A stretch of DNA of 64,000 nt from Bryum argenteum (lineage: Eukaryota; Streptophyta; Bryopsida; Bryales; Bryaceae): NCBI GenBank assembly GCA_037043015.1, contig CM073322.1, positions 12,101,601-12,165,600 of the forward strand. Direction: 5' to 3'. The notes below the pieces were generated by a model, which made no database searches, had not been told where the DNA came from, and was given only the letters and a program-made list of their open reading frames with translations. Below, one piece after another: positions 17,980 through 42,389 of the stretch. How positions within the stretch are numbered: the stretch's first letter is position 1; each line of letters starts with the position of its first letter. The position numbers and the translations under genes are program-made.

Positions 17980-20900
17980 ATGAGTGGGGTGGCGAGGAAG
18001 AAGGCGGAGTCGAGAGCGATGAAGTCGAAGTCGCCTGCAGTGTCGCCGGCATTGCGGAATGGTCGAAAGCTCTTACCGGAGCTGCTGCAGCAGCAGCAGC
18101 AGCAGTCGCGGCGAGCAAGCACCAAGCCGATTCCGCTGGAAGGTTTGGCCCGCTTATCGACCGATGTATACTCCGAGATTAATCCCACTGACGACCATCT
18201 GGAGGAAATGCTTCCGTTTCTCGGCGTCGTCATCTGCGTCACCGGCTTCTCTCGAGGTCACACTCCAACTCCTCACCTCTTACCCTCAAAGATTCACCAA
18301 TCTCAATTCCGTGTCACTGAGTTTCGCTTATTGCAGAGGCGCGCCGTGAGGTCCAGATCACTACGGAGCACTTGGGGGGCCAGTATAGCCGCGATCTTCA
18401 CGTCAACTGCACTCATCTCGTCGTTCAAATATCCTCTTGTACTAATCGCCACTTCCATTCTAGTGATCAATCCATTGCCTTGTAACAAGATTCAGATACT
18501 AGCTGGTTCCTTGACTTTGCGCACAATTGTAGCGGGCGGAAGTACGAGCACGCGGTGAAGCACGGGGTGCACCGGGGGTTGCACATTGTGACTATGTCGT
18601 GGCTTGAGGATTGCGTGAAGCAAAATGGTAAGCGTGGGATGGATGGGAGAGTGTTGGTTGAGAGGATAGGAGGAGCTGTGACTGATGGATTGGGGAGGAT
18701 TTTTGGTGGCAGCGCGCTTGGATGAGTCGCTGTACGCGGTGCCAAGGATGAATCAAGGTGTAGTGGCGGAAGCAGTGGGCAGCACGACGCGGCGGAGATT
18801 TCCATCGGCAGATCATGCGGACATGGAAGCGGCTGTCCGGTTGCAGGCCATCTCCTTTGCTAACAGCTCTGGCGGGTCGTTGCGAAACTCCTCCAGCATG
18901 CCGCGCACTCCCCATTCCTCACTCGCTACGGACAAATCGCGTCACGCCCTCGCTGGCGCCAGATTCTTCATCGACCCCGATCTCCCTCGCGACTTGCAAC
19001 TCAAGGTCAGCAGCTCATCGCATCCACACCTGATCCATAATTAGGGTTTAATGAAAATCAACTCCATGCCTCTCTTTCTGAGATCATTATAACTCATCTT
19101 TGGATCTGGATGCCTATGCTCGCATGACAAGAACCAACGACGAAGAACTCATAATCCCTATTGGGTCAATGTTATGGCAGATCCTCCTAGTGTGAAAACT
19201 AGGCTAGTTTCTCTTAGTGTGAGTACCATGCTAGCTGCAAAACTGCACAATAAGGGATAATGGTTTTCTCATTCGCTGGTAAATATCATTTGTTGATGGT
19301 TTACATCGGGCAATCCACTTCTTGTTGGGAATCAAGAAATTAGAAACACCTCCTGGCAGGTGCCTCAATCTTGTTTCTGCAATCCCCTCCTCGTCCGTCG
19401 ATAACACTAACTCGCGCTCACAGGCACAGGAAGCAGCGGAGTCGTGGGGCGCGACGTGTGTGGAGAATTGGTCCAAAGCCACCCATGTCGTCTGTGAATC
19501 TGAAACCATCCCCAAGTACATTGGCCTCAATCTTCATCTTGTCTCTGTAAGTCCTCACATCCGAAATTCGTTGAGTTCTTCTTCGCCTCTTGAGCCTAAT
19601 CGAGAGTGGCGGTGGTGGTTGTGCAGCCAATGTGGGTGATGTCGGCGCGAGATGGCGTCCCGTTGCGGTGCGTACAATACTCAGCCGATCTCGCACGCGA
19701 TGTGGCCGACCTTCTCTTGGATTGGAAGAAGAAGGGGAAGCTGAGCACCAGCACCAAAGTGAGCATCCGAATACCCAGCACTGTCTGTACACAAGGTAAT
19801 TAAAATGGATGATGAGCCAAAATTGATTGATTGCTGGTGAAACTCCAATGCAGGGCTCACTCGAAAATTACCCCAATGGAAACAAAGCAGCAGTAATCAC
19901 TGTACAAGAACGCGAGAGGAAAGCACTTGCTGCCAAGGAAGGAGTACGTCGAAGACGTGGACCTCGTATGCAGGTACTCCCTCAGATCTTCTCGGTTTGA
20001 GATTTAAGAATGCTGCGATTAGCTAAAGAATGCTCGAACAGCAGAATCCAGATCAACATTTTCTCTTTGTTGAAGAATGCTCGCATTTTGAGGGAGAGCA
20101 GATTCGTAATCAACTTTCATGAATCTCTCTTTTAGTCATGGAGTGCTCTGATTTTTGGATTCGTGTTGGATTCAACTTTCACGAGATTGAAACTAGAAAA
20201 TTTCAGTACCAAACCGTGAAAGGATCGTGGGCGTGACGATGTGGTGCTTGTTTGCAGCCGTGTAGAACTCTTCCGCGGCTAACGACACCAACAAGCCTGC
20301 TGGACTCGATCTATTGGGTGGTGTCCGATACTCCTGCCACGGCGCAGCTCTACACCAACAGCGCCGGACAAGTGGTGTTGCAAGGAAACGGGTCCGAGGG
20401 AGGGTTTCATCACAACGGCGGTCGTTACAAGGATCCGCTGGACGAAGCTCTCGGAACGGAGATTTACACCAAACCTCTCAGTCGAAGGTAAGCCTTCAAT
20501 CGTCTTGTTAGTTTCTATCGTCAATCAGTGCGAGGGTTCAAGAATTGAACAATTGGTGATGTTGCTGCAGTGATAAGCGGGAGATTGTATTTAAAGGCGC
20601 ATTTTTGACAATCCTGTTCCCCATCGACCGATTCTCCGAGCTGGGTCCGTCATCGCGGACGTTCTTCAGCGAAACTGGCTTTACAAGGGAACAAATCATC
20701 GAACTCGTGTACGAATTTTATCAGGTGCGATAACCCCTCCCTTAAACCCTAAACCCTACCCCGGTCAGAGCTCAATGCACTTTGTATTCTACGCCTCGAA
20801 GCTTTCATCAAATCCACTGGAGTTTGCGATTTAGGAGGAGAGACAAGGAAACTTTAGTGTGTTCTGATGAGAGATTTGAGGCGTAGAGGACTAATTGGAT

Positions 20901-21667
20901 TGAGCTCTGATTGATATGCGATAAACCCTAGACCCTTTTACCGATTGGTATGATCTCAATTCATTCTGTTTTCTATGCCTCTAATTTCACCATAAGAGTG
21001 TTGTGAACTCTCACATTGCAAAACCTCTTGGGTGTCCGTAGCGATCGCAAAATTTTCTTTAGTCATGATTTTTAGGGTTTTGTACCACGCACTTTCTGAT
21101 CCGGATTTGAAATGTGAGACTACGTGCGTTTAGCAAATCCAATGTGTATTTTGCGAAGCAATTGTGGATTTTGCAAATAAAGTGGAGCTTTTGCGAATCA
21201 AACGGGGTTTTGCAACTAAAATGTGGGGATTTGCAACTGAAACGGGAGTTCTCCATTTGAAATGTCGGTTTTTGCAATCAGACTGTGGGTTTTGCACCTC
21301 GAATGTGGGTATGGCAACGTGGGTTTCGCAGTTTTAGAATGTGGGATTCGCAGGTTTGGAATGTGGGTTTCGCCACTGATTTGTGGGTATTGCAACTGGA
21401 ATGTGAATTTTGCGACTGAAAACGTGGTGTGTTCTACTACGACAGGAACCGTTGTCAACCTCCGAAGTGGAAGCAGCGATCCACACAGACTCAAAGCACG
21501 CAGACAGGCTCCGAGCACTGTACGCGTCCACGGAGATGGAGGAGCTGGGGCATGTGCCCATGCAACGCCACCAATTCCTCGGCAGCCGCTTGCAATTCGA
21601 AGGGCTGAAGCGGGCGAATCAAGAGCCCACCAGCCACATCTACGACCTCTGGCTCGGCTCCTCCTGA
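17980..21667 (+). CDS. BRCT-repeat protein, ten exons
   Basis: Exons are 17980-18256, 18337-18428, 18525-18627, 18713-19005, 19424-19546, 19627-19758, 19854-19973, 20258-20487, 20571-20724 and 21446-21667. The frame is continuous to TGA, giving 581 residues. Near residues 80-170 is a BRCT domain: GVVICVTGFSREARREV, then GGQYSRDLHVNCTHLVVQ, GRKYEHAVKHG and the conserved Trp in TMSWLEDCV. A second BRCT-like unit, ARFFIDPDLPRDLQLK to GATCVENWSKATHVVC and PMWVMSARDG, follows. A long conserved-looking C-terminus ends SHIYDLWLGSS. BRCT pairs bind phosphopeptides in DNA-damage and cell-cycle proteins, so a nuclear repair role is inferred; the exact orthologue is not identified. A polyglutamine run from CAG repeats lies near residue 40. 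The start is the first ATG in frame. Intron 2 is best read as AT-AC. Confidence 0.85.
18429..18524 (+). other. Likely U12-type AT-AC intron in the BRCT gene
   Basis: The donor is ATATCCTCTT (18429-18438; consensus ATATCCTTT). The branch site TTCCTTGAC (18507-18515) matches the U12 consensus. GCGCAC ends the intron 9 bases later. Removing it joins phase 0 exons into THLVVQ-NCSGRKYEHA. The only in-frame GT-AG alternative I found, 18482 to about 18531, would be about 50 bases and would put 17 extra residues into the BRCT core. Confidence 0.8.
21090..21440 (+). repeat. Degenerate minisatellite in the last BRCT-gene intron
   Basis: About 14 imperfect units of roughly 21-25 bp, consensus near GAATGTGGGTTTTGCAACT, fill the second half of intron 20725-21445, which is the largest intron of the gene. 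Confidence 0.75.
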
Positions 21668-40897: not shown

Positions 40898-42389
40898 TTG
40901 ATGAGGTTTTGTTGACAAAAGAGAAAACCGGCCCTAGTCTGAAACATAGTTGATTTTACTCGACGACACTACTTAATATCGTAGCAGCTGATTTCGATAA
41001 GCTCACACATACTTGGAGAGTAATCACCTAGTACGGATAGGGAAGTGAATGCATATTAACCTTTCAATGCTCCAGATGTCGAATGTGATCCTTTCTGATC
41101 CTTTTGGACGAGGCCAAAACTTGTGAAGAGCCATATCATTTTCATGTGATATCCAATGTCTAATTTAGACAGAATTTGGTAAGGTTGGATTACTCCACTT
41201 TCATATGATACTTTATCTAGGACCATCTTTCTAGTTGAAGATTTTTAAAAATTCTTGTGGTTTGTTGATAGCATTTCAAAATTTTCAAAATTGCGTGGGA
41301 CAAACATTGCCTAGTTAGCAAGTGCCAAAATGACTTTAGTAGTAATCAATTGATTGCTTGGATAAAATAGCCAAGCCTGCGGGTAGTATAGGCACTTGTC
41401 ATCATGATCGAAAGTACCGAAGAGAAAACAAAGGAGATAACATGAGCCTAGTCATCAACCTCGACAAGGGCAAATACAAGCAATACTTCGGCCAGTCAAG
41501 TGCTCAATTGACCAAGGAACCACTCTGGTACCAAGGAATCAGGGCTTGCAGATTATTGGCCAAATTTTTAAAAGACAGAAAAAATGGATTTATCCATCTT
41601 GTGGGGCTGGAATCATCCCATCCTACAAAAGGTATTTGCATTGGAATCAAGGAAGATATTTTCCGTATTCTACTCTGTATGGTATGTGCATACTATGGTA
41701 TAACTGGAATCTCCATGTGTTATTACTTGAACTTGTGCATTGTGGTTGTTTGAAGAAGTGACATGAAAAAGTTCAAATTGGTTTGATGATAGAGTTAAGT
41801 ATTAGTTGTGGAAGAAGAGGCTAGGTTGGAATAAGGGCTAGTTTACACTACGGTGGAAAAGTCTAGGATTCAAGAAAAAAAGGGACAATTCTTTGTTGAG
41901 ATTGGTCAAAAATGCCATTCTTGACTATTGGGTGTTTACACTTGGTGAAGAATGTTAAGGTGGTGAACTTTGTCGTGGATGAAAAAATGACATGGTCGTT
42001 GGATGGAGATTCTTTTTGCACAATGACTTCTCCAGAAAAGTGATTTCTTGTCTGGCCTCGTGAGGCTGGACAAAGTGTCACTAATCCGGACAAGCCATTG
42101 TCAATAAAAAAGTAATGGACCATTGATTTCAGTCCTACTTTTCTGAAACGTAAGGCGTTGGCAAGCATCTCTCTCTCCCTGTATTGTAGTAGCTCCTTAG
42201 CAAATTTTTTGTGTAAATTCTTTTCACAATTTTCTTTGCATTGACTAGTTACTCACAATTTCAGTACGTTAGTAGTCAAGAGGAGGATATCCTCATTGGT
42301 ACAGAGAGTTATTTTAAGCCTTCAAGGCAATCTCCACCAAGTGCTTCTAGATCTTATGTCCAACACCCTCCTCTTCACTTGCAAAGAAT
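40898..42389. other. Intergenic, no gene confirmed
   Basis: Positions 41085-41215 are a reverse copy of family D. The 131-codon frame at 41358-41753 shows no domain I recognise. The rest may be the outer part of the Harbinger relic. Confidence 0.35.

Follow-up and report, generated by a model that had tools for sequence, protein, structure and literature searches.

The interval 18429-18524 is almost certainly a genuine U12-dependent AT-AC intron; it is intron 2 of a gene with ten exons that encodes a BRCT protein. From the genomic DNA we infer that splicing takes place at 18428/18525 and that it is performed by the minor spliceosome. The strongest evidence for this putative intron is that only the U12 signals are conserved, at a conserved position, in a paralogue on another contig (C4). 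The window, the whole stretch of DNA analysed here, covers 64 kb (G000:C2:12101601-12165600) of a 258.8 Mb genome in 25 contigs.

Gene model and splice signals of intron 2

When 18428 was joined to 18525 by manual splicing, the ten exons (Table 1) yielded a coding sequence of 1,746 nt that was open throughout. The terminal dinucleotides of intron 2 were AT and AC, and the exons joined exactly, restoring both the reading frame and the BRCT alignment. The first-pass annotation had described the donor, the branch site and the AC 9 bases past the branch motif, and these were recovered base for base; the frame continuity that it had read across THLVVQ|NCSGRKYEHA was likewise exact. In the unspliced state, the frame through intron 2 reached a TAA at the 19th intron codon. 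The other eight introns of the gene were all GT-AG, each with a length of at least 80 nt.

Table 1. Coordinates of the BRCT-protein gene, its second intron and related features (window positions, except for the paralogue, which is on G000:C4).
Feature	Position	Strand	Description	Basis
BRCT-protein gene, coding part	17980..21667	+	10 exons, 581 aa	open frame once spliced by hand
Exons 1-5	17980-18256, 18337-18428, 18525-18627, 18713-19005, 19424-19546	+		
Exons 6-10	19627-19758, 19854-19973, 20258-20487, 20571-20724, 21446-21667	+		
Exon 2	18337..18428	+	TOPBP1-like BRCT domain, first half; ends ...HVNCTHLVVQ	
Intron 2, putative AT-AC U12-type	18429..18524	+	96 nt, phase 0	signals, frame, same intron in paralogue
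U12-type 5' splice site	18429..18438	+	ATATCCTCTT	direct reading
U12 branch site	18507..18515	+	TTCCTTGAC	pattern scan; identical in paralogue
AC 3' splice site	18523..18524	+		direct reading
Exon 3	18525..18627	+	TOPBP1-like BRCT domain, second half; starts NCSGRKYEHA...	
GT-AG rival intron, disfavoured	18482..18532	+	51 nt, frame-compatible	listing of frame-keeping ends, Pfam scores
C4 paralogue intron 2	6300472 down to 6300045	minus	428 nt, ATATCCTTTT ... TTCCTTGAC ... AC	

The consensus donor of U12-type AT-AC introns is ATATCCTT(T), with T at intron position 8. The first seven bases of the donor ATATCCTCTT, ATATCCT, fit this consensus, while position 8 is C and not T. The branch site TTCCTTGAC fits TTCCTTRAY, the U12 branch-site consensus given in PMC5932401. 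The branch A is at 18514, 10 nt from the intron end. A polypyrimidine tract was absent ahead of the AC, as the sequence after the branch read TTTGCGCAC.

The chance of finding these signals together was estimated for the window. The donor pattern ATATCCTY occurred four times on each strand and the branch pattern TTCCTTRAC once on the plus strand and never on the minus strand. On either strand, the single pair of the two that made an intron of 50-1000 nt with an AC end was 18429-18524. In 200 first-order Markov sequences with the same composition as the window, a mean of 0.005 such pairs was expected per 64-kb strand, with the donor pattern widened to ATATCCTY so as to admit the 18429 donor; with the strict ATATCCTT donor pattern, 0 pairs were found in the window. 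A looser motif (ATATCCT with YTCCTTRAY) returned the same pair and one more, on the minus strand. This second pair (ATATCCT ... YTCCTTRAY ... AC, 41632-42290, about 659 nt) is probably due to chance. Across the genome, a strict pattern for short AT-AC introns showed no excess, with 1 match versus 4 for the reversed control; this pattern covered a 31-base spacing range only and misses 18429-18524 owing to the C at position 8.

The BRCT domain and competing splice-site pairs

The 581-aa protein matched three Pfam families above their cut-offs: PTCB-BRCT at residues 83-149 (69.4 bits, cut-off 22), BRCT at residues 77-154 (64.6 bits, cut-off 21.3) and BRCT_2 (33.2 bits, cut-off 27.3). The stretch CTHLVVQNCSGRKYEHA aligned gap-free with CTHLIVQEPKGQKYECA of TOPBP1 (phmmer, best E 1e-20). 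By these matches the gene is classified as encoding a BRCT protein, in agreement with the BRCT-type domain that had been proposed at first pass, and its product is a probable DNA-repair protein. The AT-AC junction falls within the BRCT domain, and CTHLVVQ|NCSGRKYEHA was crossed without a gap in the TOPBP1 alignment. Of the solved structures, 30 distinct sequences, whatever their kind, matched at E <= 1, and the nearest to the intron-split domain was that of TOPBP1 (6hm5, chain residues 187-283).

All frame-keeping end pairs with donors at 18395-18499, acceptors up to 18579 and an intron of at least 51 nt were listed. There were 30 when GC-AG ends were included, and 25 with GT-AG or AT-AC ends. 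Inspection by eye led us to reject 24 of these 25, which added or lost residues at the BRCT join relative to the paralogue; 18429-18524 alone did neither.

One of the pairs deserved closer consideration, namely an ordinary GT-AG intron at 18482-18532, with 18429-18481 read as exon. The first-pass annotation had named such a competitor as 18482 to 18531; its start was correct, but the frame-keeping version ends at 18532. It has a GTAACA donor and an AG end, and its product remained above threshold for two Pfam families (47.4 bits for BRCT, cut-off 21.3; 45.1 bits for PTCB-BRCT, cut-off 22). The product of the AT-AC join nevertheless scored higher in both families (53.1 and 61.4 bits, respectively). 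The GT-AG reading also puts 15 net extra residues into the BRCT domain, where TOPBP1 has none, and requires an intron of 51 nt, shorter than any of the other eight in the gene. The paralogue has the boundaries of the AT-AC intron and not those of the GT-AG one. Because of its length, the BRCT scores and the paralogue, the GT-AG reading was rejected as highly improbable.

The exact gene model matters for annotation, as a procedure that allows GT-AG introns only would probably break this BRCT protein in the middle of its domain.

Conservation in the paralogue and minor-spliceosome components

When 341 bases of the window were searched against the genome at the DNA level, two regions matched: the window and, on the minus strand, G000:C4:6300462-6300571, the latter with 78% identity to the query across 110 bases. 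For the C4 gene, exon boundaries were set by visual inspection, guided by the window gene, and in this model intron positions and phases matched at all nine introns. The two proteins were identical at 336 of 540 aligned residues. Synonymous divergence was saturated (pS 0.81, Jukes-Cantor undefined) and Ka was 0.31; the duplication is therefore apparently an old one, and each copy seems to have been preserved as a coding gene.

In this paralogue, the only one found by the DNA search, intron 2 occupies the same codon boundary in the same phase as in the window gene. A blastn comparison of the two introns gave eight blocks. The best spanned 12 nt around the branch (E 0.002) and a second corresponded, in register, to the heptamer of the donor (E 1.8); the remaining six (7-9 nt) were scattered. 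Beyond the U12 signals, the two introns thus shared little. Most simply, the AT-AC intron would predate the old gene duplication and would have been retained in both copies, which would mean that a paralogue pair kept it through saturated synonymous divergence.

An Rfam search of the genome found one match above the cut-off for each of the U12 (94.5 bits), U11 (64.3 bits) and U6atac (87.6 bits) snRNAs. No match to U4atac was found in the genome at E <= 0.001, which is not evidence of its absence, since no control genome matched either. The protein marker PDCD7 (U11-59K) was uninformative for the same reason, with no match in this genome or in any control genome. The U12 snRNA match contains GAGTAAGGAAAAC, for which 7 base pairs with the branch were predicted (-7.1 kcal/mol). 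The predicted duplex of the donor with the U11 5' end was weaker in the window gene (-4.4 kcal/mol) than in the C4 paralogue (-6.6 kcal/mol). The predicted duplex with U6atac showed no matching loss (-5.1 in the window versus -4.8 in the paralogue, in differing registers).

The first-pass reading of the interval as a U12-type AT-AC intron is well supported at the sequence level by the signals in the paralogue, the BRCT alignment and the U12, U11 and U6atac genes. Pairing of U11 and U6atac with the donor and of U12 with the branch site is established for the minor spliceosome. In intron 2, U11 and then U6atac would pair with the ATATCC donor, and U12 would pair with TTCCTTGAC, bulging the A at 18514. 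Cleavage at the AC at 18524 would join CAA to AAT and rebuild the TOPBP1-like BRCT domain. Counted against the minor-class reading were the C at donor position 8, the weaker U11 duplex, phase 0, the lack of a genome-wide excess of short AT-AC introns, the existence of a frame-keeping GT-AG rival and the guided choice of the paralogue's exon boundaries.

A few AT-AC introns are removed by the major spliceosome; the interval could be one of these, or a chance resemblance within an exon, with no minor-spliceosome intron present. Such a reading agrees with the strict short AT-AC patterns not being in excess genome-wide. It is opposed by the 0.005 motif pairs expected per strand, by the persistence of the U12 signals in the paralogue despite saturated synonymous sites, and by the presence of U11, U12 and U6atac genes in the genome. 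We regard this reading as very improbable.

A further proposal, compatible with U12-dependent splicing of intron 2, is that the window intron is spliced inefficiently and that its retention, with the in-frame stop, limits or regulates the product. Off-consensus donor bases do occur among U12 introns, and in the window intron the branch is perfect, the spacing is good and U6atac pairing is not predicted to be weaker, all of which argues against inefficiency. The off-consensus position 8, the weakened predicted U11 pairing and the TAA inside the intron speak for it, as does the inefficient splicing described for a U12 intron of moss CBP20 when placed in test constructs (excerpt of PMC5932401). 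On balance, we consider inefficient splicing unlikely. More speculative still, and improbable, is the idea that the difference between the full-consensus donor on C4 and the weakened donor on C2 may, through minor-intron retention, set a different dosage or damage-responsiveness of the two BRCT repair proteins.

Upstream of the RNA starts of the three minor snRNA genes, CCATAT was seen at -66 (U12), -68 (U11) and -63 (U6atac), and TATA-like stretches at -31 (U12; weak, GTACAAG), -32 (U11) and -30 (U6atac); both motifs were chosen after the sequences had been looked at. We take this layout to resemble that of plant snRNA promoters. The plant upstream sequence element is CCCACAT, and CCATAT in its place is possibly a lineage-specific variant.

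Protein family and place among known U12 introns

A protein search of the genome with a 79-aa BRCT segment gave eight matches, four of which were exons of the window gene and its C4 paralogue. The other four lay at G000:C2:547-549 kb, within a multi-BRCT locus (G000:C2:545000-552000), as four BRCT-like segments whose frames ran on for 172-360 aa without interruption; the label TOPBP1-like that we give this locus is based only on the segments standing in a row. The AT-AC intron was absent from all four segments. It therefore marks the family of the window gene and not BRCT genes generally. Compared with the TOPBP1/Rad4 BRCT proteins, the intron-split domain is closest to that of TOPBP1, yet the window gene is not the multi-BRCT gene of the genome. 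AT3G43930, a conceivable Arabidopsis counterpart that no paper was found to mention, was not adopted as an orthologue. The XIP/BCP proteins were considered and set aside; the BRCT pair of BCP2-4 is at the C terminus (excerpts of PMC9791218 and PMC9792525).

No Pfam family scored above its cut-off in the C-terminal half of the protein encoded by the window gene. Residues 494-565 (exons 9-10) were strongly conserved between the window and C4 copies, with a sub-threshold match to DUF6699 only (18.7 bits, cut-off 24.1). This region is possibly an undescribed domain beside the BRCT domain.

A known AT-AC U12 intron of plants is intron 4 of CBP20, which occurs at a conserved position in a liverwort, a moss, a lycophyte and flowering plants (excerpt of PMC5932401). 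Intron 2 of the window gene resembles it in its AT-AC ends, a TTCCTTRAY-type branch, the absence of a polypyrimidine tract and a conserved position. The lengths of CBP20 intron 4 (76-2733 nt; same excerpt) span those of both the window intron (96 nt) and the C4 intron (428 nt). It differs in that another gene is concerned, and in that CBP20 cDNA sequences were determined in several species, whereas we infer splicing here.

In earlier work, 124 U12 introns were analysed in Physcomitrella (PMC5932401), and AT-AC introns make up 26% of the U12 introns of Arabidopsis (PMC7367187) or, as quoted from another study, 4.8% (PMC5932401). Among U12 introns, phase 0 is disfavoured (excerpt of PMC7367187), which places the window intron in an under-represented class. 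Minor introns are described as not generally more conserved than major ones, with a density that varies least among land plants (excerpt of PMC10639083). In the open-access literature, titles and the openings of abstracts showed no report of a U12 intron in the window gene, which is weak evidence of its absence from print, and no paper was found on U12-type introns together with a BRCT domain. The intron adds one well-supported case to the known minor introns; it is an ordinary example and changes no principle.

Two smaller differences between the copies were observed. A GCA repeat in exon 1 of the window gene (18087-18105) encodes a short glutamine run that is missing from the C4 paralogue model. 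The last intron, intron 9, is 721 nt long in the window gene versus 195 nt in the paralogue, and in the window part of it consists of degenerate units of about 20-22 bases repeated in tandem (21169-21405).
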